From Streptomyces asiaticus (GTDB lineage Bacteria; Actinomycetota; Actinomycetes; Streptomycetales; Streptomycetaceae), in NCBI RefSeq assembly GCF_018138715.1, contig NZ_JAGSHX010000006.1, positions 5,456,001-5,520,000 of the forward strand: 64,000 bases of DNA. Reading direction: 5' to 3'. Positions within the stretch are counted from its first letter, which is position 1. Every line of letters begins with the position of its first letter. The notes below the pieces were generated by a model, which worked only from the letters and a program-made list of their open reading frames with translations, was not told the origin of the DNA and did no database searches. The position numbers were made by a program, and so were the translations under genes. This document shows, one piece after another, positions 15,562 through 40,515 of the stretch.

Positions 15562-15765
15562 ACCGGGTGGGCCGCCGGCGGCCCGGGGATCCCCCGCCCC
15601 GGGTTGGACTTCGCGGTCGGCGGCCCACCCTCCAAGCCCCCTGCCGGTCGGTATGCCGAGGCGCGGCCACCGACAAGGCAGGGGCAGTGGGGCCCGTCCG
15701 GGCGGACCACCGGACGGGCCCCACCCCGGCAAGACCAGACCAAGTCATCCGACATAGGAGACAAT

Positions 15766-16236: not shown

Positions 16237-16301
16237 CGTAAGCACGCCGTCGGCCGCCCGGCACCGCCGCCGGGCGGTCGGCCCACGGGAACGGAGGGCG
16301 C

Positions 16302-16979: not shown

Positions 16980-17090
16980 CCTGCTGCGCAGTGGGTGCCC
17001 CGGCAGAGTTCCAACCTGCGGCACCGTCTGGCGACGTTGATGTCACACCGAAGTGCGCTCGTGCGGCAGAGAGGCCGAGTGTGGCGCCTC

Positions 17091-17110
17091 CCTGGGGGAG
17101 AAACCCCAGG
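17091..17110 (+). terminator. short hairpin after the methyltransferase gene
   Basis: CCTGGGG-N6-CCCCAGG, a perfect 7-bp stem about 110 bases past the methyltransferase stop and just before the left boundary of the probable mobile element. No T-run follows, so its role as terminator is tentative. Confidence 0.35.
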
Positions 17111-17128
17111 TCAGCGGCTTAATGCATG

Positions 17129-17142
17129 GTGCCCCCGGCAGG
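17129..17142. repeat. putative attL: copy of the tRNA-Arg 3' end
   Basis: GTGCCCCCGGCAGG is identical and in the same orientation to bases 32487-32500, which form the 3' acceptor and T-arm end of tRNA-Arg(CCU). A direct repeat of a tRNA 3' end at the far side of a spdB- and integrase-bearing segment is the usual mark of site-specific integration. The match is short, so the boundary may be eroded. Confidence 0.5.
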
Positions 17143-17242
17143 GCACCACGCAGAAGGATGACCCCACTGACCTGCGGAATTTGGTCGGCAGGCTGGTGAT
17201 CAAGGGCAGCTTCGAACCCGTGTCGTGGGGCGGAGCGGGTCG

Positions 17243-22690: not shown

Positions 22691-25600
22691 ATGAACGGCA
22701 GATCGAGCAAGCGGTTACGGACACTGCGACCTCGTGTCGCGCTGGCCTCGGCCGTGGTCATGGTCGCGACCTTGCTGCAGGGAGTGGCGCAGCCTGCTGT
22801 TGCCGCAGACGACGGAAAAGGACGCCCTGTCCTTCCCCGTGCGGAGCAGCCGGTGCCCGGCACGATCGGCAAGGTCAAGCCGCGCACGGTCATGAAGGGG
22901 CCCCGTACCCCGCAGTCCGCCCCTCGCACCACTTGGCCGAGGGCGGCATCAGGGGTGGTGACACTTCCCGCCGCCGGTGGGAAGGCCGGGACAGGGCCGA
23001 AAAAGGTGCGTGGCCTGCCGCTGGCCCTGGATGCGGAAGGGGGGCGCGGCAAGGCAGCCCGCGGTGACGTTACTGCCCGGGTGCTGGGTCGCGAGGTAGC
23101 GCGGAAGGCCGGGGTTGACGGACCGCTGTTCACGCTGCAGCCCCACCCGGGGCAGAAAAGCGTGAAGAACACCATGGCGGGCCGGGTACGGGCCCGAATC
23201 GACTACGCGTCCTTCGCCGGGGTCTACGGTGGCGGCTACGCGTCCCGACTGACGTTGGTCGAGTTGCCCGCTTGCGTGCTGACGACGCCGGCCAGACGGC
23301 AGTGCCGTACGCCCAAGCCTGTCGAGGTCGTCAACGACACCGAGAAACGGACTCTCACCGCTCAGGACCTGTCTTTGCGTGCGGGTGAACCGACGGTGCT
23401 GACGGCCGTAGCAGAAGAGAAGGGAGACAAGGGGGACTACAAGGCCACCTCGCTCTCGCCTTCTGCGACGTGGAACACCAACCTGAACACCGGCGACTTC
23501 ACCTGGTCGTACGGTATGCCCGTACCGGACGTGCCAGGCGGACTGACACCGAGCGTAGGAGTGTCGTACTCCTCGGGCGGAGTCGACGGCCGCACCGCGA
23601 ACACCAACAACCAGTCCTCCTGGGTGGGCGACGGCTTCGACCTGTGGCCGGGCTACATCGAACGCCGCTACAAACCATGCGCGGAAGACGGAGTGAAGAA
23701 CGCGGACGGCGGCAAGCCGGGCGATCTGTGCTGGGCCTACGACAACGCGTTCATCTCCTTCAACGGCAAGGGCGGGGAGCTGGTGCCCAACGGCACCAAC
23801 TCCTGGAAGCTCAAGAGTGACGACGGCACGAAGATCGACCGCCTCTACGGTTCGACCGACAACGTACGCGGTAACGATGCGAGGAATGACGAGTACTGGC
23901 GGGTCACCACACCCGACGGCAACCGCTACTACTTCGGCTACAACCGCCTGCCGGGATGGGCCGATGGCAAGGAGACCACCGATTCCGCGTGGACGACGCC
24001 GGTGTTCGGCAATGGTGCCGACGAGCCTTGCCATGGGGCGACGTTCGCCGACTCCTGGTGCCAGCAGGCATGGCGATGGAACCTGGACTACGTCGTCGAC
24101 CCCCACGGCAACGCCATCGCCTACTACTACGACAAGGAAACGAACTCCTACGGCCGCAACCTCAAGGCCAAGGACAACACCCGCTACGTCCGCGGGGGTG
24201 ACCTGGACCGGATCGAGTACGGCCTGAAGTCGTCCTCGATGTACGGCACCAAGGCGCTGGCCAAGGTCGACTTCACCAGCGGCGAGCGCTGCCTGCCTGA
24301 TGAGCAGACCGACTGCGCGTCCATCGACAAGGACGCTTTCTACTGGTACGACACCCCCTGGGACCTGAACTGCACGGTGGACGAGGACTGCGACGACGGT
24401 CGGCTCTCGCCGGTGTTCTTCACGCGCAAGCGGCTGACCCGGATCACCGCACAGGCCCTCGACAGCGGCACCTACAAGGATGTCGACTCCTGGGCGTTCG
24501 CCCATCGCTGGGGCAAGGCTGACACCGACTACCAACTGGAGCTGGAATCCATTCAGCGCACCGGCCACAGCGCTGACCCAGCCATCACGCTACCGAAGAC
24601 CACGTTCGCCTACACCCAGTTGGCCAACCGCCTGGATAAGACCGGCGACGGTTACGCACCGTTCATCAAGGACCGGCTGTCCACGGTCGCCGATGAGTCC
24701 GGTGGGCAGATCGACGTCAAGTACTCCGCTGAGGAATGTGACTGGGACTCCCTGCCGACCCCGCAGACGAACACCACGCTCTGTTTCCCGCAGTACGTCG
24801 GCGGCAGTACCAGCGACGACCCTGAACGGCAGTGGTTCAACAAGTACGTGGTCACCTCCGTGACCACAACCGACCGCACTGGTGGCGCGCCTGATCAGGT
24901 GACCGCCTACGACTACAAGGGCGGCGCGGCCTGGCATTACGACGATGACGACGGACTGACCAAGGAGAAGTTCAAGACCTGGTCGCAGTGGCGCGGCTAC
25001 GGGCAGGTGCGGGTCCAGACCGGTGGCCAGGGTGGGACGGGTGCGATGAAGTCGCAGCAGGACACCTACTTCCTGCGCGGCATGGACGGCGACCGCAAGG
25101 ACACCGGAGGCGGCACCAGGAGTGTCACCGTGGCGCTCGATGATGACGAAGGCGACCCGATCACCGACCATGATTCGGCGGCCGGCTTCGCCTACAAGAC
25201 AGTCAGCTTCTCCGGGCCGGGCGGAAAGGTCCTCACCAAGACCATAAACCGGCCCTGGCACCACGAGACCGCGAAAAAGGTCCGCGACTGGGGCACGGTC
25301 ACAGCCAACCTCACCGGGACCGCCCACACCAAGACCTTCACCTCACTGGATGACGGGGCCGGGACCAAATGGCGGACCGCATCAACGGCCACCAGCTTCG
25401 ACACGGTGGCCGGTCGGATCACCCAGGTCGACGACTTCGGTGACAACGACACCGCCGCCGACAACACCTGCACCCGCACCACCTACGCCACCAACACCGA
25501 CAAGAACATCCTCACCCTCCCCTCCCGGGTAGAAGCGGTCGCCACAGCCTGTGACACGACCGCCAACCGACCGGACGACGTCATCTCCGACGCGCGAACC

Positions 25601-28600
25601 GCCTACGACGGCGGCACCTATGGCGACGCCCCCACGAAAGGCGACGCCACCGGAACCGCGGTACTGAAGAAGTACGACGGAACCACCGCCGTCTATGTGG
25701 AGTCCGGCTCGACCTACGACTCCTACGGACGGAAGCTCACCAGCACCGACCTGACGGCCGACGTCACCGTCACCGCGGCCGGAGCACTCAAACGGACCGC
25801 TCGCACCGACGGCCGTACCACCACAACCGCCTACACTCCCGCCTCCGGTTTGCCCACCAGCGCGAAGGTGACCTCGCCCCCCGCCAAGACCGGCGACGCG
25901 AGCACCGCGCAGACCACGACCACCACGCGCGACGTGCTGCGCGGCCTGCCGCTGACCCAGACCGACACCAACGACAAGGTCACCAACTACGCCTACGACG
26001 CCCTGGGCCGCTCCACCAAGGTCTGGCTGGCCGACCGGCTCACCGGCCAGACCCCCACCTACGAGTTCACGTACACCGTCACCGACCGGCAGCCGGTGGC
26101 GGTGGGCACCAAGACACTCGGGAACAACGGTACCCAGCAGACCTCCTACACCCTCTACGACGGCCTGCTACGTGAACGGCAGACACAAGCTCCCGGACCA
26201 GACGGCGGACGGCTGCTGACCGACGTCTTCTACGACGAACGGGGCCTGAAAGCCAAGGACTTCGCCACCTACTACGCTGACGGCAAGCCGAGCGGCACCC
26301 TGTTCAAGCCAGAAGACGCACTGAACGTCGAAACGCAGAACCGCTACACCTATGACGGCCTGGGCAGACAGACCGAGGCACGGCAAATCGCCGGAAACGG
26401 CGACGGCGGCACGGTCCTGGGCGTCACCAAGACGATCCACGGTGGCGATCGCACCACGGTCATCCCACCCGTGGGCGGTACCGCTACCACCACCCTCACC
26501 GACGCCCGCGGTAAAACCACCGAACTGCGCCAACTCCACCAGCGCACGGTCGGCGCCGCCTATGACACGACCACCTACGCCTACACACCACGCGGCGAAC
26601 TGAAGACGGTCACCGACCCAGCCAAGAACACCTGGAGCTACAGCTACGACCTTCTCGGCCAGCTCACCCGTGCCAAGGACCCGGACAAGGGCACGACCAG
26701 CAGCGTCTACGACGACCGCGGTCAGCTGACCTCCACCACCGACGGACGCAACACCACCCTCGCCTACGTCTACGACGGCCTTGGCCGGCGGACCGAGCTG
26801 CGCAAGGACTCGCCCACCGGCGAGCTGAGAGCGAAATGGGTCTACGACACCGTCAGTAACTCGAAGGGCTACCTGGCGGAATCCACCCGCTACGACAACG
26901 GCCGGGCCTACACCTCCAAGGTCGTGGCCTACGACCGCCTCTACCGAGCACTGCGCACGTCCGTCACCATCCCCGCCGAAGAGGGCCCACTCCAGGGCAC
27001 CTATCTGTCCGCCACTACGTACAAAGTCTCCGGACTCGTGGAAGGGAAGGGCTATCCCAAGGCCGGATCCCTTCCAGCGGCCACCATGGCCTACACCTAC
27101 GAGGACGAGACCCTGCGCCCCATCGCCATCGACGGCAGCCAGGGCGTGAAATCCAGTGTCCTTTACAGTCTGACCGGCAAACCGCAGCAGTACGAACTCT
27201 CCAGCGGCGGCGGCAAGAAAACCTGGGCCACCAACACCTACGAATGGGGCACCCAGCGCCTGGCCACGGCGCGGGTGGACCGGCAGGACGTGGCGGGCGT
27301 CGACCAGTACAACACGTATCGCTACGACGAGGCGGGCAACGTGCTGTCGGTATCGGACGTCTCCCGCTCCGGCACCGACAACCAGTGCTTCACTTACGAC
27401 TACTTGCAGCGCCTGACCGAGGCATGGACCCAGGGCGGCAAGGAATGCGCCGCCACCCCGAGCGGCAGTGTGCTGGGCGGCCCGGCTCCGTACTGGACCT
27501 CCTACACCTACGACCAGGTCGGCAACCGCAGGACGGAAACCCTGCACAACCCGTCGGGCGATGCCGCCAAGGACACCAAGCGCACCTACGACTATCCCGA
27601 CCCGGGCAGCGCACAGCCACACACTCTGACGGCCGTCAAAGCCAGCGGGCCCAGTGGAACCGCGCAAGACACCTTCGGCTACGACAAGAGTGGCAACAAC
27701 ACCACCCGAAAGCTGGGCGGCGACACCCAGACCCTTGACTGGGACACCGAGGGGCACCTGTCGAAGGTGACCGAGCCGGTCGAGGGCGGTGCCGACAAGG
27801 TCACCGAATACCTCTACGACGCCGACGGCAACCGGCTCATCGGCCGCACCTCCACCGAGACCACCCTCTACCTGGGCGCCACCGAGATCACGCTGCCCAA
27901 GGGGTCATCCACACCGAGGGCCACCCGCTACATCGACCTCGGCGGCGGCCACCAGGCCGTACAACAGGACGACGGCAGCGTCTCCTTCACACTCGCCGAC
28001 CATCACGGCACCGCACAACTCGCCATCGACGCCGCCTCCCAGAAACTCACCCAGCGACGCACCCTGCCCTTCGGTGATCTGCGTGGCGAGGAACCTGCCG
28101 CCTGGCCCGGCACCAAGGGCTTCGTCGGCGGGACCGACGACACCAAGGCCACCGGCCTCACCCACCTGGGCGCCCGCGAATACGACCCCACCACCGGCCG
28201 CTTCCTGTCCGTCGACCCGGTCATGGACCTGACCGACCCCCAGCAGATCAACGGCTACGCCTACGCCAACAACAACCCGGTCACCGGCTCCGACCCCACC
28301 GGGCGCTTCTGCGACGGTTGCAGCGCCGATGGCGCCAACAACAACTGGACTCCGAGCCACGGTCCGGGCTGCACCACAGAGGGCTGCTACGACACCAGTG
28401 GCCGTATCCTCTACCCGGTCTCCAGCGGCCCTTCCCGAGCCCGGCCCAGCGGCGGCAATTCCTACCGTCCCGGGCGGACGATCAACATCACCCAGAAAAA
28501 GGGTGAACTGCGGCTCGAGGGCATCAGGATTCCGTCCGCCGGCGAACTGGCGAAGCGCTTCCCGGGGTACGACAGCGAAGAGCAGCTCCAAAGATGGGCG

Positions 28601-29578
28601 CAGCAGAAGTGCTATTCGCCGTCCACCCGGCCCGAGGGATTCTGCTCGGCCGCCGAGGCGATCGGGCTGGTGAACTACGAACAGAACGGCTTCGAGAAAC
28701 TGGTGACCGCGGTCGCGGTCAGCGTGGCCTCCCCGGATATCGGCGCGTGGAAGAGCTGCCTGAGCGGCAAGAGCCTCAAAGCCTGCGGCGCGGCCTCGCT
28801 CGACCTCCCATGGGCCCGGGCCTTCAAGGGGCTCAAGGTCCTCAAAGCCTGCAACAGCTTCACCCCAGACACCCAAGTGCTGATGGCCGACGGCACGACG
28901 AAACCTATCGAGGACGTCCAGATCGGCGACAAGGTCCTCGCCACCGACCCCAAGACCGGCAAGACCACCACCAAGACGGTCACCGCCGAGATCAAGGGCA
29001 ACGGCCTGAAACACCTCGTCAGAATCACCCTCGATCTCGACGGCAAGAGGGGCGAGAAGACCGCCTCCATCACCGCGACCGACGGCCACCCCTTCTGGGT
29101 CCCCGAACTCCACGCATGGATCAACGCCACCGACCTCCGCACCGGCCAGTGGCTCCGCACCTCCGCCGGCACCCACCTCCAGATCACCGCCGTCAAGTAC
29201 TGGACCCAGCAAGCCACGGTCCACAACCTCACCATCACCGACCTCCACACGTACTATGTGCTGGCGGGGGCCACTCCGGTCCTGGTTCACAATTCCACAC
29301 CGTGCGATCCTCCTCTGAAGTCGCTGCACCCTGACAGTTCACTCGATAAGAGTTCGCTGGATTTCTGGGGCAAGCAAGACACAGAAGATATCGTCTTTTC
29401 GTTGAGGCCAGGTGCGAAGGAGGCGCTGAGGGTGAAGCCGGACGGGACGATCGCGAATGGAAACACTCGGATAAAGGTCCTGCGGGATCGCGGATACGAT
29501 ATCGACTCCTTGCCTCGCGAGCCCTATGGCAGCAGCCGACCAATGACGGACGAGGATTTCTGGGACATGGATCAATGA
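22691..29578 (+). CDS. RHS/YD-repeat polymorphic toxin with Hint domain and ParB-like C-terminal toxin
   Basis: A 2295-aa protein. Residues 1-38 are a signal peptide (LASAVVMVATLLQGVAQPAVA). Many YD repeats follow (YDALGRSTKVW, YSYDLLGQLTRAKDPDKG, YVYDGLGRRTELR and others, about residues 1040-1750). The RHS core signature AREYDPTTGRFLSVDPVMDL near 1827 ends with YANNNPVTGSDPTG. Residues 2054-2201 form a Hint/intein-like protease: Cys2054 in CNSFTPDTQVLMADG, DGHPFW, and terminal VLVHN. The last about 94 residues are a distinct tip with DGTIANGNTRIKVLRDRGYD (NGNTR at 2256-2260), resembling ParB-like nuclease folds. Codon 9 is TTA (22715-22717). The likely mechanism is Hint-mediated release of the toxin from the RHS shell. 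The immunity gene overlaps the stop. Confidence 0.9.
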   Translation: MNGRSSKRLRTLRPRVALASAVVMVATLLQGVAQPAVAADDGKGRPVLPRAEQPVPGTIGKVKPRTVMKGPRTPQSAPRTTWPRAASGVVTLPAAGGKAGTGPKKVRGLPLALDAEGGRGKAARGDVTARVLGREVARKAGVDGPLFTLQPHPGQKSVKNTMAGRVRARIDYASFAGVYGGGYASRLTLVELPACVLTTPARRQCRTPKPVEVVNDTEKRTLTAQDLSLRAGEPTVLTAVAEEKGDKGDYKATSLSPSATWNTNLNTGDFTWSYGMPVPDVPGGLTPSVGVSYSSGGVDGRTANTNNQSSWVGDGFDLWPGYIERRYKPCAEDGVKNADGGKPGDLCWAYDNAFISFNGKGGELVPNGTNSWKLKSDDGTKIDRLYGSTDNVRGNDARNDEYWRVTTPDGNRYYFGYNRLPGWADGKETTDSAWTTPVFGNGADEPCHGATFADSWCQQAWRWNLDYVVDPHGNAIAYYYDKETNSYGRNLKAKDNTRYVRGGDLDRIEYGLKSSSMYGTKALAKVDFTSGERCLPDEQTDCASIDKDAFYWYDTPWDLNCTVDEDCDDGRLSPVFFTRKRLTRITAQALDSGTYKDVDSWAFAHRWGKADTDYQLELESIQRTGHSADPAITLPKTTFAYTQLANRLDKTGDGYAPFIKDRLSTVADESGGQIDVKYSAEECDWDSLPTPQTNTTLCFPQYVGGSTSDDPERQWFNKYVVTSVTTTDRTGGAPDQVTAYDYKGGAAWHYDDDDGLTKEKFKTWSQWRGYGQVRVQTGGQGGTGAMKSQQDTYFLRGMDGDRKDTGGGTRSVTVALDDDEGDPITDHDSAAGFAYKTVSFSGPGGKVLTKTINRPWHHETAKKVRDWGTVTANLTGTAHTKTFTSLDDGAGTKWRTASTATSFDTVAGRITQVDDFGDNDTAADNTCTRTTYATNTDKNILTLPSRVEAVATACDTTANRPDDVISDARTAYDGGTYGDAPTKGDATGTAVLKKYDGTTAVYVESGSTYDSYGRKLTSTDLTADVTVTAAGALKRTARTDGRTTTTAYTPASGLPTSAKVTSPPAKTGDASTAQTTTTTRDVLRGLPLTQTDTNDKVTNYAYDALGRSTKVWLADRLTGQTPTYEFTYTVTDRQPVAVGTKTLGNNGTQQTSYTLYDGLLRERQTQAPGPDGGRLLTDVFYDERGLKAKDFATYYADGKPSGTLFKPEDALNVETQNRYTYDGLGRQTEARQIAGNGDGGTVLGVTKTIHGGDRTTVIPPVGGTATTTLTDARGKTTELRQLHQRTVGAAYDTTTYAYTPRGELKTVTDPAKNTWSYSYDLLGQLTRAKDPDKGTTSSVYDDRGQLTSTTDGRNTTLAYVYDGLGRRTELRKDSPTGELRAKWVYDTVSNSKGYLAESTRYDNGRAYTSKVVAYDRLYRALRTSVTIPAEEGPLQGTYLSATTYKVSGLVEGKGYPKAGSLPAATMAYTYEDETLRPIAIDGSQGVKSSVLYSLTGKPQQYELSSGGGKKTWATNTYEWGTQRLATARVDRQDVAGVDQYNTYRYDEAGNVLSVSDVSRSGTDNQCFTYDYLQRLTEAWTQGGKECAATPSGSVLGGPAPYWTSYTYDQVGNRRTETLHNPSGDAAKDTKRTYDYPDPGSAQPHTLTAVKASGPSGTAQDTFGYDKSGNNTTRKLGGDTQTLDWDTEGHLSKVTEPVEGGADKVTEYLYDADGNRLIGRTSTETTLYLGATEITLPKGSSTPRATRYIDLGGGHQAVQQDDGSVSFTLADHHGTAQLAIDAASQKLTQRRTLPFGDLRGEEPAAWPGTKGFVGGTDDTKATGLTHLGAREYDPTTGRFLSVDPVMDLTDPQQINGYAYANNNPVTGSDPTGRFCDGCSADGANNNWTPSHGPGCTTEGCYDTSGRILYPVSSGPSRARPSGGNSYRPGRTINITQKKGELRLEGIRIPSAGELAKRFPGYDSEEQLQRWAQQKCYSPSTRPEGFCSAAEAIGLVNYEQNGFEKLVTAVAVSVASPDIGAWKSCLSGKSLKACGAASLDLPWARAFKGLKVLKACNSFTPDTQVLMADGTTKPIEDVQIGDKVLATDPKTGKTTTKTVTAEIKGNGLKHLVRITLDLDGKRGEKTASITATDGHPFWVPELHAWINATDLRTGQWLRTSAGTHLQITAVKYWTQQATVHNLTITDLHTYYVLAGATPVLVHNSTPCDPPLKSLHPDSSLDKSSLDFWGKQDTEDIVFSLRPGAKEALRVKPDGTIANGNTRIKVLRDRGYDIDSLPREPYGSSRPMTDEDFWDMDQ

Positions 29579-29916
29579 GTATTCGAGATCGAGTGCTCGC
29601 AGTCCTGGAGTCGGAGTCCAAGGAAGTGTTCCTGCTGGCCTTGGGGCATCGGCTAGGAATATCGGCGCGGTTCATTTTCTCGGAGGGAAGTTCGGATGCG
29701 CTGCAACAAGCCCGAGCTTGCAATGAGATGATGATCGCCATTTGGTTGCAGGTGTGGGCTATGAAGGATGCTGAAGGGGGTGGCTACCCAGATTCAGAAT
29801 TCCTTCCGATCCTGCTAGGGAAGGCTGACGCAGGAAACGCGCGTCCGCATCTTCGTAATGCAATCGAGAGTGCCCTGCTCTCAGTCGGCGGAGATGGGGA
29901 TAGGGGCGGAGAGTGA
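29575..29916 (+). CDS. probable immunity protein for the RHS toxin
   Basis: A 113-aa acidic, mostly helical protein with MSIRDRVLAVLESESKEVFL, LGISARFIF and MMIAIWLQVWAM. It shows no known domain to my eye. The ATG overlaps the toxin stop (ATGA), which is the usual coupling for a cognate immunity gene. Base composition is clearly lower in GC than the RHS shell, like the toxin tip, so the two appear to travel as a unit. The immunity role is inferred from position, size and coupling. Confidence 0.7.
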   Translation: MSIRDRVLAVLESESKEVFLLALGHRLGISARFIFSEGSSDALQQARACNEMMIAIWLQVWAMKDAEGGGYPDSEFLPILLGKADAGNARPHLRNAIESALLSVGGDGDRGGE

Positions 29917-29962
29917 TATAAGTCCGTAACCTGCCCAGGTCGTGAGATCCCAGAACGCTGAG

Positions 29963-29995
29963 GAGCCCCGTCGGAAGGACATTCCGGCGGGGCTC
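29963..29995 (+). terminator. terminator of the RHS toxin/immunity transcript
   Basis: GAGCCCCG-T-CGGAA pairs with TTCCG-G-CGGGGCTC across a five-base loop, followed by TTGGGG. It lies 47 bases past the immunity stop. Confidence 0.6.
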
Positions 29996-30028
29996 TTGGG
30001 GCGTTTGACGGCAACGCTGACGGCAACG

Positions 30029-30185
30029 TCAGCGGACGGCTGCTGCGGCGGGTGGGTCGTCACGTCTGTCACCCTCGACGCTGAGCACTTCATAGAGGGT
30101 GTCGATGGCTTGGCGTTGGAGGCGGAGCCGGACGGTGGGCGTAGACGCCGGCGGTGACGCCGATGTGCGCCTGGCCGAGGGCTCG
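30029..30185 (-). pseudogene. C-terminal stump of a tyrosine-family integrase
   Basis: On the minus strand two overlapping frames give LGQAHIGVTAGVYAH and then VRLRLQRQAIDTLYEVLS. Together these match the end of actinomycete phage/ICE integrases, where the catalytic Tyr lies in the T-x-x-x-Y-A-H-V segment. The switch of frame shows a frameshift, and nothing upstream resembles the catalytic Arg and His boxes, so the gene is a dead stump. It is on the same strand as the tRNA-Arg, consistent with the former integrase of the local element. Confidence 0.6.
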
Positions 30186-30269
30186 GGCAGGCCGGCGTGG
30201 ACACGGCCTGTTCGGTGCGCCAGGCGCGGCGGGCGACCGCAGCGCGCCGAGAGTGACGGAGTAGCGGCG

Positions 30270-30467
30270 AAGACGCGGGGGTGGGTGCGGGCGGTGTCGA
30301 GCACGGACGCCCGCGACGCCATCGCGCCCGGCACGAAAACCCTGTCGACGACCGAATACCGCTGGCTGGCCTGCCGGTTGACAGAGGCCTTGAGGGACGC
30401 GCTCAGGGTCGCGGAATCGCGGGGACAGCGCATCCCGGATCAGGAAGAGGCGACCGAGGATGCCTGA
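30270..30467 (+). pseudogene. 3' part of a small hypothetical gene of an integrative element
   Basis: The frame ending at 30467 carries DARDAIAPGTKTLSTTEYRW, then LACRLTEALRDALRVAESRG and QEEATEDA, and looks like a normal small helical protein. Upstream in the same frame the sequence is arginine-rich shadow coding opposite the integrase stump, so the true 5' end seems lost. It overlaps the start of the DUF7848-like frame by eight bases, as in an operon. Confidence 0.4.
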
Positions 30468-30746
30468 CTCTCCGAATGCCGGCGCACCGGTACGCAATGA
30501 CTCTCGGGGGCGCTACCGCTTCCGCGAGTACCACGTGACCACCGTCCCCGACCCCATGGCCCTGCCAGCGTTCGAGGCGGTCTGCGTCATCGGCGAAGCG
30601 CGCAACTGCGGCGCACCTCAGGCACGCTGCACACCCCCGACGAACTGACCCTTTGGATCGCCGGACACTGCGCCCAGAGCGGCCACGAGTTCTACGAGCA
30701 GATCGTCCGCGCTCTCGTCCGCGTCGAACAGGGGGCGTGGCAGTAG
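30460..30746 (+). pseudogene. DUF7848-like small protein, frameshifted
   Basis: The first frame reads MPDSPNAGAPVRNDSRGRYR, FREYHVTTVPDP and FEAVCVIGEARNCGA, then fails. One frame over it continues TPDELTLWIAGHCAQSGHEF and YEQIVRALVRVEQGAWQ to a stop at 30746. The combined order (aromatic beta-strands, two Cys, W-x-x-x-H helix, R-x-E-x-G-x-W end) fits small DUF7848-type proteins often found on actinomycete plasmids and integrative elements. The break lies near 30612-30620. Family naming is tentative. Confidence 0.5.
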
Positions 30747-30923
30747 GGCAATAGAGTCCCCCTTCGCCGACACCACGCCAGCGGCAACGCGACCGTGCAG
30801 CCCGAGCCGCTGACGGCAGTAGCGACGGCAACACCCACGGATTTCCCCGCACAACCACGGACGCCAGCGGATCCCGAAACAAGCGCTGACCTGCAAATAA
30901 GGAGGTAGAGCGGGTCCACGTAG

Positions 30924-31333
30924 CACACGTACTATGTGCTCGCGGGCCAGACACCGGTTCTCGTTCACAACGCCAAGTGCGGTGAACAGGGCGGCTCCTT
31001 GAGCCGGCTCTTCGGTAAGCGGAATAACCCAGCCTTCCGGAGCCGAATGCTACGGCGGGAGATCTTCGCGGGATCGCCCATGACATGGTTGATGAGAACG
31101 GCGCGTGGGCCCATGACCCGATGAAGAGGGGAATGCTTCAGGGGCAGGGTGATGAAGACCTACTACGGTTCGTTTTCCATCCAGACGACCCAGGGCGTAG
31201 CTTCATGACGATTGGAGGGGATGGACAGATGATGGAAGGCAACCATCGGATGGCTGAATTGATTTCCCGCGCCTCCGATCCTCGTAGTTCCATTTGCTGG
31301 GATAGGCCAATCTACATCCGAGGCTGGGGGTGA
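30924..31333 (+). pseudogene. orphan Hint-junction plus toxin tip (displaced RHS C-terminus), frameshifted
   Basis: The frame opens with TYYVLAGQTPVLVHNAKCGE, the last residues of a Hint domain, with no RHS gene before it. Bases 30924-30940 are identical to 29246-29262 in the full toxin gene. The tip then reads LSRLFGKRNNPAFRSRMLR, and after a frame change near 31050 continues GIAHDMVDENGAWAHDPMKR, LLRFVFHPDD and MTIGGDGQMMEGNHRMAELI to a TGA at 31331. GNHR echoes GNTR of the active tip, hinting at the same ParB-like fold. It lacks its own start and is probably silent unless recombined. Confidence 0.7.
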
Positions 31334-31726
31334 GTGGTGCGCCTGCGCGTGCGGAAGGTTGCGGGGAAGCTAGCGAGTAGCCACGTGAGGCAGCTTACTT
31401 CCCGGTCAGCTGACCACCTTATGGGCATTGCCATCGATAGAGGGCTTGCCCACAAGGGGAACTGTAAATGGCTTGCGGAGCGAAGAGGCGAGTATGGGCG
31501 TTGCTATCTGGTTCCGGCACTCGATACGCACCTCAAATCCTCGGATATCCGCTGCATCTTGGTGCTGCTGGACCGCAGCAATCGGGCAGTCTGGATGACC
31601 TTGGATGTCAGTCCGTGGATGCTGCTTGGGCTGCCGAAGTTGCGAGGGCGTGAAGTCGTTCACGTGATGGGCCGCTTGGCTTCCAACAGCCCTGTGGTTC
31701 GATGGGATGGCTCGCTCGAGAGCTGA
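31334..31726 (+). CDS. orphan immunity protein candidate
   Basis: A 130-aa protein starting at GTG 31334 (or the adjacent GTG 31337), immediately after the orphan toxin stop. It contains VRKVAGKLASSHVRQLTSRS, ERRGEYGRCYLVPALDTHL and RAVWMTLDVSPWMLLGLPKL, mixed alpha/beta, no recognised domain. Lower GC than the surrounding chromosome. Position directly behind a toxin tip argues for the cognate immunity function, possibly kept because it still protects against siblings with that toxin. Confidence 0.6.
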   Translation: MVRLRVRKVAGKLASSHVRQLTSRSADHLMGIAIDRGLAHKGNCKWLAERRGEYGRCYLVPALDTHLKSSDIRCILVLLDRSNRAVWMTLDVSPWMLLGLPKLRGREVVHVMGRLASNSPVVRWDGSLES

Positions 31727-31749
31727 GGCTTGTGGGGCCGGGTAGAGGC

Positions 31750-31830
31750 TCATACCTCCCGGATCTCGGCCATCGTGCGCACCGCACGGTCGCGCAGCTC
31801 AGGTGGGTAGGAGGGGGGCGTTCCATGACT
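31750..31830 (-). mobile_element. IS3-type transposase OrfA N-terminal remnant
   Basis: The minus strand encodes PSYPPELRDRAVRTMAEIREV and then a stop. Y-P-P-E-[LF]-[RK]-x-R-A-V-R is the opening of IS3-family OrfA proteins. There is no in-frame start and nothing after the stop, so only about 22 residues survive. Confidence 0.45.
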
Positions 31831-31936
31831 CTGACCATTACACGGGAATTGAGCCCCACTTCGCCCGGGGCGGTTCACTCTTTGGGCTGGCTTTCCTGTT
31901 GCTGTCGGGCCCGGGCGCGGACGCCTGGGCAGCCTG

Positions 31937-32224
31937 GTGGTTGTGGCGGATGATCGTGATGCGATGGTGGACCGGGGCGGCCCGGGTGACGGTGCGAGGG
32001 GCGCCGGTCGCCGACGGGATGTGCGTTTCGAGTCCCGTGTCGACACGGTTCAGGGCCCGGAAGCGGAAGCTCTGGCTCGGCAGCAGGTGACCGCTATGTG
32101 TGACGTGGTGAGCTGGGTCGCGCAGCAGCGAGAGCAGAGCCGCGCTTCCGAATCGACCGCGCCCGACGAGGACGGGCCGGTGGGCCAGGGACCGGACCTC
32201 AGGTCATCGCCATCCGAGGGGTAG
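31937..32224 (+). CDS. hypothetical protein, doubtful
   Basis: A 95-aa frame with LARQQVTAMCDVVSWVAQQR and an acidic, Ser/Pro-rich C-terminus (STAPDEDGPVGQGPDL). The central helix looks like real protein, but the N-terminal part is low-complexity and no good ribosome site is seen. It may be a remnant of an element-borne gene. The rest of 31831-32294 shows no gene. Confidence 0.3.
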   Translation: MVVADDRDAMVDRGGPGDGARGAGRRRDVRFESRVDTVQGPEAEALARQQVTAMCDVVSWVAQQREQSRASESTAPDEDGPVGQGPDLRSSPSEG

Positions 32225-32294
32225 GCCTTGGGCCCTGCCGGCCTGCGCACCTTGCGGTGGGTGACCGGCTGCTTGCTGGAGTTACCCCCTCTGG

Positions 32295-32308
32295 TTCGAA
32301 CCTGCGAC
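32295..32308. repeat. partial copy of the tRNA-Arg T-arm
   Basis: TTCGAACCTGCGAC is identical to bases 32502-32515 inside tRNA-Arg(CCU). It lies about 200 bases downstream of the tRNA 3' end, in the same orientation. It could be an att core left by an earlier insertion. Confidence 0.45.
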
Positions 32309-32487
32309 GCTGAGGGCCGGTGCTGACGCTCCTCGTCCAGCCTTGCTGACCTGCGAAGTCGTGGGACGAGGACAGGTTGTGCGGCGGAGCCGGGTCCGCG
32401 CGCGGTCACTGGTCCCGGCGCCGTAGGTAGCCCCACGGGTAGGCGTATGACGCCCTCTGACCTGCGGCAACGCAGGGTGTAACCAAG

Positions 32488-32560
32488 TGCCCCCGGCAGG
32501 ATTCGAACCTGCGACACCCGCTTTAGGAGAGCGGTGCTCTATCCCCTGAGCTACGGAGGC
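32488..32560 (-). tRNA. tRNA-Arg(CCU)
   Basis: A 73-nt cloverleaf on the minus strand: acceptor GCCTCCG/CGGGGGC (one G-U pair), D-arm GCTC/GAGC, anticodon stem CCGCT/AGCGG with loop CTCCTAA (anticodon CCT), T-arm GCAGG-TTCGAAT-CCTGC, discriminator A. The 3' CCA is not encoded. Its 3' end is repeated at 17129 and in part at 32295, which points to use as an integration site. Confidence 0.95.
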
Positions 32561-32666
32561 CCGGCGTCAGGGCGGCATGGTGGTGCCGCCGCGGCGTGCC
32601 GTCACAGTGTAGCGGGTCGGGTACGTGGGCGTTCGGGTGCTCCGGGGTGGTGGGGCCTGGGTTTCG

Positions 32667-32694
32667 CCTCGGGCCGGGGCGTCCCGGCCCGAGG
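32667..32694 (-). terminator. terminator of the des operon
   Basis: A perfect 12-bp stem, CCTCGGGCCGGG and CCCGGCCCGAGG, with a four-base loop, 20 bases past the desD stop. Confidence 0.6.
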
Positions 32695-32714
32695 CCTCGG
32701 GGCCGTCGGGTGGG

Positions 32715-34502
32715 TCAGGCCCCTGGCCCCCATCCCGCGATCGGGTTCTTCAGTGTGCCGATCAGCTGGAGGGCGCCGGCCGGGTCCTGGAGGTCGACCA
32801 TTTCGCGGTTGTTGCGGAGCTGGAGGCGGTTGAGGCAGGAGAGGGCGAAGTCCTCGGCGAACATGTCGTACTGGGCGAATTTGTCCGCGAGGTGGGGGGC
32901 CGAGTGCTGGTAGGAGAGGACGCAGTCGGCGACCGTCTGCCAGAAGGTGTCTTCCTCGAGGAGGCCCTCGCTGACGAGGATGCCGTTGAGGAAGCGGAGG
33001 AAGCAGTCGAAGACGTCCGTGAAGATCGAGAGGAGTTTCTTGTCCTCGGGGACGTCGACGCGGATGCGTTCCACGGTTGGGGGGAGGACCGCGGTGGGGT
33101 CCATGACGGCGATCTCCTCGGCGATGTCCTTGAAGATCACGCGCTGGACGGCGCCGTCCTCGATCACCAGGATGACGTTCTCGCCGTGCGGCATGAAGAC
33201 CAGGTCGTAGGCGTAGAAGCTGTGCAGCACCGGGGTGAGGTAGGCGTCCAGGTAGCGGCGCAGCCAGGTGGCGGGGGTGAGGCCGGACTCCTCGATGAGG
33301 GCGCTGACGAAGGAGGCGCCGTCGGGGTCGGTGTGGAGGAGGGAGGCCATCGTGGCCAGGCGCTGGCCGGGTTCCAGGGACGGGACGGGGCTCTCGCGCC
33401 ACAGGGCCGCCAGCATCTTGCGGTACGGCGAGCCCTTCGCCGTGGCCGTCTCGTACTGGCGGTGGTGGTAGCCGATGGCCGCTCGTTCCCGGATGATCGA
33501 GAAACGCGCGGCGCGGAAGGTCTCGTCCGAGGCGATCAGAGACGCCAGCCAGTCGTTGATGGCCGGCGTCGCCTCCATGTACGCCGCCGACAGGCCCCGC
33601 ATGAAGCCCATGTTCAGCACCGACAGCGCGGTCTTCACATAGTGCTTGGACGGGTCGCTGGTGTTGAAGAACGTACGGATCGACTGCTGGGCCAGGTACT
33701 CGTCGTCGCCGGGGCCCAGGCACACAAGGTACTGCCGGGCGACCTCGGCGGCGAAGCTCACCGACAGCTTGTTCCACCACTGCCAGGGGTGTACCGGCAG
33801 CAGGTGGTAGTCGGCCGGGTCCAGGCCGAGGTCGGTGAGGGTCCGCGCGAAGCGGGCCCGGGTCTCCGCGCTCAGTTCGGAGTGGACCAGGGCGTCGTAG
33901 TCCAGGTCCGCGGAGGACGTGAAGGTGGAGCGGTCGCGGCGGGCGGCGAGCCAGATCAGGTGGACGGGGCTCGCGGTCTCGGGGGCGTACGAGAGGTATT
34001 CGTGGATGCCGAAGCCGAGGCGGCCGTTGTTGGCGACGAAGCAGGGGTGGCCCTCGGTCATCCCCGTCTCGATCTCCTGGAAGCCGGATTTGGCCAGCTG
34101 GGCGGCGGCCACCGGCTCGCCGGCCAGTTTGAAGGCCGTCCCGGAGAGGGTGGAGCTGATCTCCTCGAGGTAGACGGGGAGGATGTCCTCGCTCAGGCCG
34201 AGCCGCCCGCGCAGCTCGATGAAGAAGTCCAGTGCGTCCAGGGGGAGTTCGGCGCCGGTCCGGTCGTGGCGGGTGATGCTGTCCGCCTCGACCAGCCAGT
34301 GGTCCAGGGAGAGGACACGGGCGGCGAAGCGGTAGGTCACCGCCCCGTCGTCGCTGGTCACGGCGTAGCGGCCGGTGGGGTCGAGCTCGGGAGCGAGCAG
34401 CCGCTCGTGGGTGAACTCGGCGAGGGCCTTGCGGATGAGGAGGCGGCCCGCCCGGTCCCACAGGTCGGGGGTGAGGTGGGCGACGGCGTCGCGGGGGCTC
34501 AT
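32715..34502 (-). CDS. desD: desferrioxamine synthetase, IucA/IucC (NIS) family
   Basis: A 595-aa NRPS-independent siderophore synthetase, standard length. Family marks include EGHPCFVANNGRLGFG near residue 148, LLPVHPWQWWNKL near 237 (H-P-W-Q motif), KTALSVLNMGFMRGLS near 302 and the C-terminal FhuF-like part. It condenses N-hydroxy-N-succinylcadaverine units with ATP and closes the trimer to desferrioxamine E-type products. It starts inside the desC stop (four-base overlap). It is the last gene of the six-gene iron-regulated set and is followed by a hairpin. Confidence 0.96.
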   Translation of the reverse strand: MSPRDAVAHLTPDLWDRAGRLLIRKALAEFTHERLLAPELDPTGRYAVTSDDGAVTYRFAARVLSLDHWLVEADSITRHDRTGAELPLDALDFFIELRGRLGLSEDILPVYLEEISSTLSGTAFKLAGEPVAAAQLAKSGFQEIETGMTEGHPCFVANNGRLGFGIHEYLSYAPETASPVHLIWLAARRDRSTFTSSADLDYDALVHSELSAETRARFARTLTDLGLDPADYHLLPVHPWQWWNKLSVSFAAEVARQYLVCLGPGDDEYLAQQSIRTFFNTSDPSKHYVKTALSVLNMGFMRGLSAAYMEATPAINDWLASLIASDETFRAARFSIIRERAAIGYHHRQYETATAKGSPYRKMLAALWRESPVPSLEPGQRLATMASLLHTDPDGASFVSALIEESGLTPATWLRRYLDAYLTPVLHSFYAYDLVFMPHGENVILVIEDGAVQRVIFKDIAEEIAVMDPTAVLPPTVERIRVDVPEDKKLLSIFTDVFDCFLRFLNGILVSEGLLEEDTFWQTVADCVLSYQHSAPHLADKFAQYDMFAEDFALSCLNRLQLRNNREMVDLQDPAGALQLIGTLKNPIAGWGPGA

Positions 34503-35269
34503 CGGGTCACTCCTTGGGCGTCGCGGGCCGTCCGGGCGGTCGGTTCAGTCCGCTCGTTCCGGTCGATCGGGTGGGTCGGTTCGGTCCGTCCGTTCCGTCC
34601 GTTCCGGTCGGTCCGGTCGGTCCGGTCGGTCCGGTCGGTCCGGTCGGTCCGGGCGGTCCGGGCGGTGCGGTCGGTCCGTGCCGTCCGTGCGGCATCGGCG
34701 GCGAGTGCGGTGCGCGCGGCCTCGAACCGCTCGCGGGTGCAGATGCTGAGGTAGGCGTCCTTCTCGGGTTTGGCGATCCGCTCGACGATCTCGAAGCCGA
34801 CGGCCGCGTTGAGCGCGTGCACCGCGTCATTGCGCACATCGGGCTCGACCACCACGCGCCGGACGGCCGGATCGGAGAAGCAGAACTCCATGACGGCGGT
34901 GATCACGGCGAGCGTGAAGCCGTGCACCGGGGTGTCGGTCGGCGCGCACAGGAAGTGCATGCCGACGTCGCCGGGCCGGGAGGGGTAGAGACCGGCGAGT
35001 TCCACCCGCGACGGGTCATAGCGCTCGGCCAGGAACGCCGGACGCCCCTCGTGCAGGCCGATGAACGCCTCATGGTGCGGATGCTCGTGGATCTTGCGGT
35101 ACTCGGCGGCGACCTCCGCCTCGTCCGCCTCCTGCATCATCCAGAACGACGCCTTGGGGTGGGTCACCCAGCCGTGCAGCAGCGCGGCGTCGGCCGCCGG
35201 GTCCAGGGCGCGCAGGGCGAAGGTGCCCAGGCGCGCGTCGGTGTGCTCGAAGAGCGGCGGGGATGTCAT
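34499..35269 (-). CDS. desC: GNAT acyltransferase for N-hydroxycadaverine, with repetitive tail
   Basis: A 256-aa protein. Residues 1-185 are a GNAT fold of the IucB/RhbD type ([20 protein letters not shown] near 30, [39 protein letters not shown]), which acylates N-hydroxycadaverine with succinyl- or acetyl-CoA. The remaining about 70 residues are an odd tail of Thr-Asp-Arg repeats coded by a 9-bp minisatellite (34603-34647). Usual family length is near 180-190, so the tail is an add-on. Both ends overlap neighbours by four bases. Confidence 0.93.
34603..34647. repeat. 9-bp minisatellite inside the desC 3' end
   Basis: Five perfect tandem copies of TCCGGTCGG, flanked on both sides by degenerate copies (34520-34690). 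On the coding strand each unit is one Asp-Arg-Thr tripeptide. Being a multiple of three, copy-number change keeps the frame open into the desD start. Confidence 0.9.
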
Positions 35270-36573
35270 GACACGGCTCCTTCCGGTGCGCCGAACTCCT
35301 GGAAGGCGATGGACTTCTCGACCGGATAGTGCTCCCGCCCCAGCAGCTCACGGATGATCCACGAGTTGCGGTACGGGCCCATGCCCAGGTCCGGGGAGGT
35401 CAGGCTGTGGGCGTGGGTGGCGCCGTTCTGGAGGAAGATGCCGCGCCCGGTGGTGTCGATGCTGTAGTTGCGGGCGACGTCGAAGCGGCCGTGGCGGTCC
35501 CAGCGGATGCGGTCGCGCACCGGGTCCAGGAAGGCGGGCACCTGGTAGCGGTAACCGGTGGCCAGGACGAGCCCCTGGGTGGTGAGCGAGAAGTCCCGCT
35601 CCTGCTCGGTGTGGCGCAGCCCGAGGGTGTACGTGGCGGACTGCTCGTCGTACGCCGCGTCGGTGAGCGCGGTGTTGGTCAGCAGCCGCGTGGGCACCGG
35701 GCCGCCCACGCTCTTCTGGTACAGGAGGTCGAAGATGCCGTTGATGAGGTCGGCGTCGATCCCCTTGAACAGGCCCTTCTGCTCGCCCTCCAGCCGGTAG
35801 CGGGTGTCCTCGGGGAGCGCGTGGAAGTAGTCCACGTACTCGGGCGAGGTCATCTCCAGGGTGAGTTTGGTGTACTCCAGCGGGAAGAAGCGCGGGGAGC
35901 GGGTCACCCAGTTCAGCCGGTAGCCGTGGGTGTCGATGTCGGCGAGCAGGTCCTGGTAGATCTCGGCCGCGCTCTGGCCGCTGCCGACGACGGTGATGGA
36001 CTCCTTGGCCTGGAGCGCCCGCTTGTTCTCCAGGTAGTCCGTGTTGTGCAGCAGATCGCCGCCCAGGCCCCGGCACACCTCGGGGAGGTACGGCGGGGTG
36101 CCGGTGCCCAGCACCAGATGGCGGGCGCGGTGGGTGGTGGTCTCGCCGCTCGCGGGGCGCAGGGCGCGCACCGTGTAGAGGCCGTCGGCCTCGTCGTACT
36201 CGACGCTCGTCACCTGGTGGCCGAAGCGGACGGACGGGAGCTTCGCGGCGGCCCAGCGGCAGTAGTCGTTGTACTCCGCGCGCAGCGGATAGAAGATCTC
36301 GCGGATGTAGAAGGAGTACAGCCGCCCCGATTCCTTGAGGTAGCTGAGGAAGGAGTACGGGGAGGTGGGGTCGGCCAGGGTCACCAGGTCGGCCATGAAC
36401 GGGGTCTGGAGGGTGACGCCGTCCAGCAGCATGCCCGGATGCCAGTCGAAGTCGGGCTTGCTCTCCAGGAACAGTCCGTCGAGTTCGTCGATCGGCTCGG
36501 TGAGGCAGGCAAGGCCCAGGTTGTAGGGGCCGAGCCCGACCGCGATGAAGTCGTGGGTGTGCGGGGTGGGCAC
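35266..36573 (-). CDS. desB: cadaverine/lysine N6-monooxygenase
   Basis: A 435-aa flavin N-monooxygenase (IucD/RhbE type). The GTG start at 36573 has GGAG six bases before it. Motifs: FAD site [13 protein letters not shown] near residue 12, substrate segment [20 protein letters not shown] near 45, NADPH site [16 protein letters not shown] near 185 and the [12 protein letters not shown] motif near 360. It hydroxylates the terminal amine of cadaverine before acylation by DesC. It lies 26 bases after desA and overlaps desC. Confidence 0.96.
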
Positions 36574-36599
36574 GAGGGTCTCCGGCGGGGTGAAGGGGC

Positions 36600-38186
36600 T
36601 CAACTGGCGCGCGAGTGGCGGGGGCCGCTGAGCTCGGGCTCGATGTGGAGGGCCAGGTACTGACCGGCGTGTTCGGCCAGCAGGTCGAGGACATACGCGA
36701 TGTCGCTCAGCGAGGTCTCCGGGTTGAGCAGGGTGAACTTGAGGTGGTGACGGCCGTCGACGACGGTTCCGGCGACCACCGCCGCGCCGGAGGCGGCCAG
36801 CGCGTCCCGGGCGTGCAGATTGGCGCGGTCGACGAGGTCGGGGTCGCACGGCCCGTCGGACGGCGGTACGTAGCGGAAGACCAGCGTGGACAGCTGCGGC
36901 TCGGTGACCACCTCGTAGCGCGGATCGGTGTCCAGCAGGGCCCATGCCTCGGCGGCCCGCTCCACCACCTCGTCGAAGAGCGCCCCGACGGCGTCCGCGC
37001 CCATGATCCGCAGCGTCAGCCACAGTTTGAGCGCGTCGAAGCGGCGGGTGGTCTGGATGGACTTGTCCACCTGGTTGGGGATCAGGTTCCGGGCGCTGTG
37101 CTCGGGGTTGAGATAGTCCGCGTGGTACGTGGCGTGGCTGAGCGTGGCGCGGTCGCGGACCAGGACGGCGCTGGAGCTGACCGGCTGGAAGAAGGACTTG
37201 TGGTAGTCCACGGTCACCGAGTCGGCGCGCTCGATGCCGTCCAGGAGGTGGCGGCGGGTCGGGGAGACCAGCAGCCCGCAGCCGTACGCGGCGTCCACGT
37301 GCAGCCAGGTGCCGTGCCGGGCGCACAGCTCGGCGATCTCGGGCAGCGGGTCGATGGAGCCGAAGTCGGTGGTGCCCGCGGTGGCCACGACGGCCATGAC
37401 GATCAGGCCCTCGCGGCGGCAGCGGTCCAGCTCATGGGCGAGGGAGACGGTCCGCATCCGGCGGTCCTGGTCGCAGGGGACCGGGATGACGGCCTCGTAG
37501 CCGAGCCCGAGGATGGCGGCGGCCTTCTGGATGGAGAAGTGGCTGACCTGGGAGGTGAGGATGCGCAGCCGGGGCAGGATCGCGGATTTCGCGATCGTCT
37601 CACCGGCGGCGGTGGCCTCCTTCTCGACCAGGGTGCACGCCTCGTCGCGGGCGAGCAGCATCGCCTGGAGGTTGGACTGGGTGCCGCCGCTGGTGAAGAT
37701 GCCGTCCGCGGCCTCGCCGAGGCCGATGCGCTCCGCGGTCCAGTCGATCAGCCGGCGCTCGATCAGGGTGCCGCCGGCGCTCTGGTCCCAGGTGTCGAGG
37801 GAGGAGTTGACGGCGGAGAGGACGGCCTCGCCCAGCAGTGCGGGGATCACCACGGGGCAGTTGAGATGGGCCAGGTAGCGCGGGTGGTGGAAGTAGACGG
37901 TGTCCCTGAGGTAGACGCTCTCCAGCTCCTTGAGCGCGGCGTCCGGATCGCCGAGCGGGCGCTCCAGGTCGATTCCGGAGATCTCGGGGGCGAGCTCGGC
38001 GGGGGTGATGCCGGTGAAGGGGCGCTCGGCGCGGGCGACGGTGGCGGCCACCAGGCCGACGCCGTCGGTCACGGAGCGCCGATAGCGTTCCGCCGTACGG
38101 CCGTTGAAGAGGTGGGCCCTGCCATCCGCCGCCCCGGGTATCGGCTCCGGCGACGGGTCCTCAGCGGTCTGCGCGAGGAAACTCAC
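36600..38186 (-). CDS. desA: PLP-dependent lysine decarboxylase
   Basis: A 528-aa group II decarboxylase making cadaverine from lysine, the first step of desferrioxamine synthesis. A GTG at 38186 with AAGGGA upstream gives the start. Visible: [20 protein letters not shown] near residue 165, [17 protein letters not shown] near 300 and the PLP-lysine segment [17 protein letters not shown] with Lys330. No iron box is visible in the 290 bases before it (38187-38478, no gene), so it is probably read through from the upstream genes. Confidence 0.95.
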
Positions 38187-38478
38187 GGTCTGTCCCTTCT
38201 GGAAACGAGCATGCGGGCGTGCGGACGGCGCCGGCATGCGGCTGGGTGGGGGAGGGGGCGGCCTGCGGCCTGACGGCCCGGTGGGCTGACGGCCTGGTGG
38301 GCATGCGGGGGCGCTGGACGTGGCGGCAGGGCGCGCGGGGGCGCGCCGAGCGGTCGGCCGCCGGCGTCCAGCGGTCGGCCCTCTGCGGTCCTTTGGAGGG
38401 ATTCGGTGAGAGGGATTCAGTTGTGCGCCGCGGGGGTGGATTCAGCTGGGGGGCTGGGGAGCGGCTCCGGCGACGGGG

Positions 38479-39366: not shown

Positions 39367-39427
39367 GGGAGGGGGGTCTTCCCTTCGCTTGCCGTGGGGA
39401 GGCCGGGGCCAGCCGGTCGACTGACCG

Positions 39428-40453: not shown

Positions 40454-40515
40454 GAAGGTGCTCTCTCTCGATGCATACGGGGGCATGGTCACGGGACGGC
40501 AACCCGAGGACGTAG

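Follow-up and report, generated by a model that had tools for sequence, protein, structure and literature searches.

An orphan toxin tip and immunity gene behind an RHS gene of Streptomyces asiaticus, and a proposed integrase attachment site in Hint codons

The RHS locus and its orphan tip and immunity gene

This study concerns an RHS toxin gene of Streptomyces asiaticus, the orphan toxin tip and immunity gene that lie behind it, and a short repeated sequence at the end of its Hint domain that may serve as the attachment site of an integrative element. The stretch analyzed, called the window here, comprises 64,000 nucleotides (assembly GCF_018138715.1, contig NZ_JAGSHX010000006.1, positions 5,456,001 to 5,520,000 of the forward strand). 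The product of the active gene contains RHS repeats and a PT-HINT domain (residues 2064-2202, Pfam) followed by a variable tip, which makes 22691-29578 a gene for an RHS polymorphic toxin with a Hint domain. Beyond its own immunity candidate and a 1-kb spacer, a piece of a Hint end, a second tip spread over two frames and an intact open reading frame (ORF) of 130 aa follow one another at 30924-31726. The genes and gene pieces are as follows.

22691..29578, + strand: active RHS toxin gene, 2295 aa (ORF, Pfam)
29294..29578, + strand: active toxin tip with a GNTRI motif (sequence); proposed to have arrived with an element, lying between the core and the integrase remnant described below, as in related elements
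29575..29916, + strand: active immunity candidate, 113 aa, with a 4-base overlap with the toxin gene
30927..30971, + strand: C-terminal Hint fragment, TYYVLAGQTPVLVHN (translation)
30972..31333, + strand: putative displaced toxin tip (EGNHRMAEL), its early part out of frame and its later part open
31334..31726, + strand: displaced immunity candidate, 130 aa, intact (open ORF, homologues)

A first-pass annotation, made from the letters alone, had described a Hint-end fragment about 1.3 kb downstream of the RHS gene, followed by a frameshifted second tip and an open 130-aa ORF; all three are present, and the fragment was correctly placed. The orphan begins with TYYVLAGQTPVLVHN and continues as the overlapping frames 30936-31124 and 31085-31333. 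With a shell fragment, a tip and an immunity gene all downstream of the main gene, the arrangement constitutes an orphan RHS tip-immunity module.

Searches of Pfam, PADLOC and NCBIfam returned no family for the orphan tip, the 130-aa protein or the active 113-aa immunity candidate. The AlphaFold model of the orphan tip reached a predicted local distance difference test score (pLDDT) of 77.6, and its best ParB match was weak (E 3.7); the GNHR motif of the tip may suggest a ParB-like fold. Fold searches with the tip and immunity models found no PDB match at E <= 0.001, and therefore no catalytic activity is claimed. The label 'toxin' for the tip is putative and rests on its RHS-Hint context. For the 130-aa protein, nine homologues were listed by the protein search, among them P0002, 98% identical and given without a source, which may be the same locus. 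When 199 relatives were searched with the immunity protein, the genome itself was hit in two places, along with one weak match (8e-4). Two scans of viral contigs contained no relatives of the orphan tip or of the immunity protein.

Relatives of the orphan tip on RHS proteins

Homologues of the open piece of the orphan tip were listed with up to 89% identity, the window's own sequence aside, and relatives of the tip can be read in a single frame in P0011 (89% identity), L024 and L025 (L and P numbers denote loci and proteins of this analysis, and G numbers genomes). RHS repeats, PT-HINT and a terminal relative of the orphan tip occur together in L024 (Streptomyces sp. ICBB 8177), L026 (Kitasatospora sp. 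GP82) and L027 (S. rubellomurinus), and L013 has Hint plus tip at the end of a long open frame. The earlier suggestion that an old tip was displaced by a new one at the Hint end is well supported. The first-pass annotation would have been refuted had no relative carried the orphan tip fused to an RHS shell, and these loci show that relatives do carry it.

The first-pass annotation had further proposed searching genomes for an RHS protein that ends in the orphan tip, with the 130-aa protein directly behind, and a gene of this kind was found in L024. Its tip is 66% identical to P0011, and the ORF immediately following encodes a homologue of the 130-aa protein (E 1e-11; HHalign probability 97.8%); this fused tip with a related immunity gene likewise marks the pair in the window as an orphan RHS tip-immunity module. 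In L025, also from Kitasatospora sp. GP82, this pair occurs once more as an orphan; its tip is open and its immunity protein shows 45% identity.

The 17-bp core and its arm

The junction between the active Hint domain and its tip recurs in front of the orphan, and the features proposed for a left (attL) and a right (attR) attachment site are listed below.

29246..29262, + strand: proposed attL core in the Hint end, identical to 30924-30940 and resembling 26 sites with in-frame Hint upstream
29250-29256: proposed 7-bp overlap of the attL core, CGTACTA
30888..30906, + strand: proposed attR arm, a decayed inverted repeat, GACCTGCAAATAAGGAGGT (GACCWGCRAAA arm pattern)
30924..30940, + strand: proposed attR core, by identity with the attL core; proposed 7-bp overlap at 30928-30934

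The 17 bases reported earlier as identical between 29246-29262 and 30924-30940 match exactly, with the next base different on both sides, and form the sole exact direct repeat of at least 15 bases in 28600-32700. The Pfam PT-HINT match around the active core site has an E-value of 1.5e-20. At 30922-30940 the sequence reads AGCACA-CGTACTA-TGTGCT, a 6-bp inverted repeat flanking seven bases, which is the form that tyrosine recombinase cores usually take. To the left of the orphan the sequence is unrelated to Hint and resembles the flanks of other orphans; a non-Hint flank ending in GTAGCAC before the core is common to the window, L025 and L026, where it lies upstream of the orphan Hint piece.

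A survey of 27 loci, mostly picked for holding the core, so that its counts describe structure and not frequency, contained 26 core sites with in-frame Hint upstream (attL-like) and 24 without (attR-like). The former include one displaced copy, L071:12377, and the latter include L025:10948, which has Hint remnants and no arm. The arm, called where GACCWGCRAAA occurred with at most 2 mismatches in the 120 bp preceding the core, was present in 23 of the 24 attR-like flanks versus 4 of the 26 attL-like ones.

Across 121 genomes of the genus, the core pattern with synonymous alternatives gave 117 matches in 62 genomes, and the reversed pattern, used as a control, gave none. Adjacent cores within 20 kb formed 17 pairs on the same strand and 0 on opposite strands, distributed over 12 of the 121 genomes. 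Few genomes of the wider phylum contain the exact 20-base pattern, which occurred in 4 of 12 genus genomes and in 1 of 384 others; this last genome, G659, belongs to another family of the same class and carries two exact cores in Hint frames, at L195:9337 and L196:7608.

Codon choice in the core

The core falls in codons for HTYYVLAG, a peptide that is well conserved across Hint domains, and its synonymous positions were examined in two sets of Hint domains picked by the Pfam model and not by the core. The first set held 30 Hint loci, with the motif in 26 and TYYV in 24 of those. The second held 40 Hint loci from genomes with few contigs, excluding loci already fetched for the core and thereby tilted slightly against it; the Hint end was not located in 7, which were dropped, leaving 33. 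The sets overlap by 10 loci, and each site was counted once.

The second Tyr of HTYY was encoded by TAT in 20/24 cases of the first set and 20/29 of the second. The union comprised 51 distinct sites, 47 of them with Tyr, and TAT was used in 35/47, compared with 151 of 1368 Tyr codons (11%) elsewhere in the same frames. The Thr codon was ACG in 27/31 cases of the second set versus 837/2958 (28%) in the background. Among the 117 core-pattern matches described above, 99 had TAT and 18 TAC. Binomial p-values for the codon bias are below 1e-10, with a lower true strength owing to the kinship of the genes. The codons of PVLVHN, an equally conserved peptide, vary. Judged by this codon usage, the core is constrained at the DNA level.

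An integrase clade linked to the core

In related loci the active immunity gene is followed by a tyrosine integrase gene (Phage_integrase, PF00589) on the other strand. An integrase of this clade was found downstream on the opposite strand in 9 of the 33 located Hint loci, and its presence followed the codon: 9/20 loci with TAT had it versus 0/13 others (Fisher p 0.005).

The association was also counted from the integrase side, over 30 loci, one per genome, several of the 17 close integrases being partial. The core was found beside 15 of the 17 integrases with at least 70% identity to the query. In 13 of these 17 (70-100% identity) it had the same orientation and lay 751-1260 bp past the 3' end of the match; in L165 the distance was 1786 bp, and in L176, where the gene is split, the core lay 1.0 kb past the second piece. 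In L172 the integrase stops at the contig end. Among 13 distant integrases (39-51% identity), none had the core within 1500 bp. The usual gap between integrase and core leaves room for a tip and an immunity gene.

Of the five downstream cores in the Hint-locus survey, three have the arm (L137, L139 and L140) and two have Hint sequence upstream (L155 and L157). In L155 (+1615) and L157 (+1623) these second cores stand behind Hint genes, no clade integrase was found there, and the cores were possibly displaced by another route.

Integrative elements in relatives and the remnant in the window

Complete elements between cores could be recognized in relatives as actinomycete integrative and conjugative elements (AICEs) of the pSAM2 type. 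They are situated between the active and the displaced pair, bring a tip, an immunity gene and an integrase, and terminate in a conserved arm adjoining the core. Three plasmid records were examined, of which NZ_CP108236.1 and NZ_CP108578.1 are the clean examples. In NZ_CP108578.1, from S. goshikiensis, three arm-bearing cores follow one another (locus positions 1114, 7484 and 17777), and the annotated genes from 7484 to 17777 encode an integrase (84% identity to the clade query), a helix-turn-helix (HTH) protein, a replication initiator, DUF2637, FtsK and GntR; the interval between att-like sites thus holds the integrase, replication protein and FtsK-type transfer gene that characterize an AICE. 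In NZ_CP108236.1, with cores at 102208 (one mismatch) and 112976, the annotated order is HINT toxin, barstar-family protein, tyrosine integrase, HTH protein, DUF2637, FtsK/SpoIIIE, GntR, XRE and NUDIX, with hypothetical genes interspersed and two behind the second core. The third record, NZ_CP109164.1, has two cores, and an integrase is absent from its gene table, which is itself incomplete.

Furthermore, Pfam identified an integrase together with a complete RepSA match in L075 and FtsK/SpoIIIE with GntR in L076; in L140 it found an integrase, a partial RepSA and an FtsK match below threshold. This otherwise AICE-like element in L140 also contains a transposase gene with IS481-type domains (L140:6370-8256). 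In L081, four cores with integrases or integrase pieces between them form an array.

The spacer of the window contains the remains of such an element:

29917..30923, no strand assigned: putative collapsed integrative element (four blastn pieces collinear with the L025 element)
30056..30179, - strand: remnant of a tyrosine integrase C-terminus, in two frames (tblastn)

Four pieces of this 1007-base spacer match L025 in the same order and orientation (L025 positions 248-300, 1779-1875, 2725-2764 and 9328-9940); the first contains the end of the integrase, and the last runs into the attR arm. The integrase remnant, at 30179-30056, was detected with five of six integrase queries at E 1.3e-6 to 1.9e-7 and with the sixth at 0.025. 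On the strength of these matches the spacer is a pSAM2-type element collapsed by deletions. With a 3' integrase remnant and other pieces in place of the AICE gene set, it is a derivative and not a working element. From its collinearity with the element it would follow that the element brought the active tip and its immunity gene and that the orphan pair, as the gene's earlier pair, was there before; this reading is taken from the layout.

Tips in both states and other RHS loci of the genome

The 83 tips collected from core loci, to which four relatives of the window tip were added and from which tips below 30 aa (one) were dropped, fell into 60 clusters, 47 of them single. Seven clusters contain both members behind attR-like sites and RHS-fused members, with identities from about 30% up. 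The best mixed pair matches the L077 active tip with the L137 orphan (84% over 104 aa), and the ORFs behind these two tips are homologous as well (62.5% over 104 aa). Of the 24 tips that follow attR-like sites, 18 retain an open frame of at least 91 aa, which leaves the broken tip of the window in the minority.

Two further RHS loci with the core occur in the same genome. The paralogue L011 shares with the window 82.5% identity in the shell, 97% over 144 bp in a piece of the orphan immunity gene, all that remains of that gene there, and 88% in the downstream sequence. The active tip of L011 is a different one, and a further tip fragment and an ORF resembling a transposase gene intervene. The orphan pair is probably older than the split between the two loci, as judged from these shared pieces, with tip changes coming later. 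Selection to keep protection, with which the first-pass annotation found the intact immunity gene and broken toxin consistent, is a tentative reading: the window holds a single intact copy, L011 the 144-base piece, and most tips behind attR-like sites elsewhere are still open. At L011:10899-12660 there is part of another orphan tip, 79% identical over 29 aa to an active tip in L125, followed by a 431-aa ORF that probably encodes a transposase; pieces of the window's orphan tip and immunity gene lie behind it. The third RHS locus, L071 (C6:7591000-7610000 of the same genome), has cores at 8195 and 12377 and a broken clade integrase; its second copy keeps Hint sequence upstream and is a different kind of displaced fragment.

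Proposed mechanism and alternative explanations

The orphan is very probably the former tip and immunity gene of the window's RHS gene, displaced by a pSAM2-type element that integrated at the Hint end. This view draws on the two cores, the collinear remnant, the elements at the corresponding place in relatives, the tie between integrase clade and core, and the tips seen in both states. An AICE with its own tyrosine integrase would enter the DNA coding for HTYYVLAG at the end of the Hint domain, the integrase acting on the core. In the attachment site of the element (attP) the same core would precede the codons for the final Hint residues, a new tip and its immunity gene. Once integrated, the element would create an in-frame RHS-Hint-new tip fusion at attL; downstream of it would come the new immunity gene, then the integrase gene on the opposite strand, then the remaining parts of the element. 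The old tip and its immunity gene would be stranded without a start beyond the far end of the element, at attR. In the window, the last steps in this order of events would be the shrinking of the element to 1 kb and the loss of frame in the old tip.

A wider proposal, advanced with moderate confidence, is that this family of Streptomyces-group elements spreads as exchangeable toxin-tip cartridges. The integrase would recognize a 7-bp overlap within the conserved Hint codons of RHS genes, integration would rewire the resident toxin and install its immunity, and excision would restore the old tip. Repeated rounds would build ordered arrays of silent tips, as exemplified by the four cores of L081 and the three of NZ_CP108578.1, and a rare codon would be kept as part of the attachment site. 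The element may thereby favor its own spread, by arming a new host against kin that lack it.

The first-pass annotation had attributed the arrangement to recombination at the Hint junction; the displacement is well supported, and the mechanism looks more specific, the junction resembling an integrase core in its inverted repeat, arm and linked clade more than a place of general recombination. General homologous recombination at shared Hint sequence, as in Salmonella rhs, with the integrase genes as bystanders, is an unlikely source of the window's arrangement. Such a route has a precedent in the orphan-tip fusion by recombination across 522 bp for which Koskiniemi 2014 presents evidence (PMC3967940), and it may well act elsewhere, since L025:10948, L071:12377, L155 and L157 keep Hint sequence upstream. 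In the window, however, exact identity spans 17 bp inside a stretch of about 45 bp with similar coding sequence, instead of the hundreds of base pairs of Salmonella-type switching, and the left flank is like that of other orphans and not Hint. The integrases on the opposite strand, with room for a tip pair between them and the core, and the rare-codon signature within the core also argue against it.

It is more improbable still that a cassette was inserted downstream as a ready-made orphan pair that never formed part of this RHS gene. The tip is indeed frame-broken, and no second, RHS-fused copy of it was found in this genome, but the orphan has an element arm on its left, as at 23 of the 24 attR-like sites, a piece of the same immunity gene stands behind the paralogous RHS gene, and the joint between Hint end and tip is that of full-length proteins of relatives. 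That the core is conserved solely through the need of the Hint protein for HTYYVLAG, its likeness to an att site being due to chance, is scarcely credible. The conservation of the peptide would fit this view; against it stand the synonymous choices measured over background (TAT 35/47 versus 11%, ACG 27/31 versus 28%), the varying codons of the equally conserved PVLVHN, and the retention of the core at 24 attR-like sites that lack an intact Hint frame upstream.

Several observations weigh against displacement by an integrating element. Neither an excised circle nor an empty site was observed, nor was recombination, and about 40 integrase residues are left in the window. A clade integrase was not detectable in 24 of the 33 sampled Hint loci, nor in G659 within 17 kb around each of its two cores, so the core also persists without one. 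For the clade integrase of L164, the entire 6-kb contig contains no core, with up to 2 mismatches allowed. RHS cores without Hint likewise carry relatives of the orphan tip (P0013, L014 and L015). The codon statistics are inflated by shared descent. The four displaced or second copies named above have Hint sequence instead of the arm upstream, and a second displacement route, perhaps homologous recombination or duplication, is therefore likely at other loci. Finally, similarity between the shells of the window gene and L011 breaks off at about 28300, ahead of the Hint domain; exchange therefore also occurs away from the core, and a second, upstream exchange point may lie near 28300.

Neighboring features

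32487..32560, - strand: tRNA-Arg (CCT), downstream; the similarity of the window locus to L011 stops inside it

Window positions 31856-32513 are 88% similar to L011:12665-13323, and this similarity ends inside the tRNA-Arg (CCT) gene, which L011 lacks. A second integrative element, inserted at the tRNA, may have left this break. Beside the tRNA, on the minus strand, 32715-40492 presumably represents a hydroxamate siderophore cluster (decarboxylase, monooxygenase, synthetase and binding protein).

Relation to known systems and biological meaning

Displaced orphan rhs-CT/rhsI pairs are well known in Salmonella (Koskiniemi 2014, PMC3967940), and the Streptomyces pair is like them in lying behind the main gene without a start signal and in having fused relatives elsewhere. 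It differs in that fusion in Salmonella is ascribed to homologous recombination across 522 bp, whereas here a 17-bp core, an integrase and an element arm are present. Orphan arrays of cdiA-CT/cdiI contain intervening integrase and transposase genes, and site-specific recombination has been proposed for them in general terms (PMC4927057); tandem displaced pairs and their proposed displacement by new modules are shared with the present case, but the delivery protein there is another one, and the portion of that source available gives no attachment site, integrase clade or element type.

AICEs reside mostly at tRNA genes and in some cases in protein-coding genes such as rlmN (PMC3218068, PMC9513070), and several may accrete at one Streptomyces site (PMC9513070). 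The elements described here share with pSAM2-type AICEs the integrase, replication protein, FtsK-like transfer gene, GntR regulator and accretion at one site; unlike the AICEs described there, their proposed site lies inside a toxin gene, to which the element would supply a new end. Polymorphic toxin cassettes of Mycobacterium abscessus prophages similarly place a toxin-immunity cassette next to an attachment junction, but these are whole toxin genes of the prophage, in contrast to the new end for a resident gene proposed here (PMC8092301). A 2012 toxin survey describes exchange via cassettes, and the word 'integrase' does not appear in its first 300,000 characters (PMC3482391). In searches limited to open-licence papers, this site and its carrier were not found in print. 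The site defined within Hint codons appears to be new, as do the integrase clade, the arm of the element and the interpretation of such orphan tips as sequence beyond attR.

The change of tips in polymorphic toxins has so far been ascribed to recombination in general terms. Under the mechanism proposed here, the exchange point would become a defined site with a candidate enzyme and a carrier, and tip switching could be induced and measured. Conjugative elements would be linked to the arming of their hosts, and tandem orphan pairs would be explained as element accretion. The core itself would provide a short tag for finding displaced tips and immunity genes in genome data.
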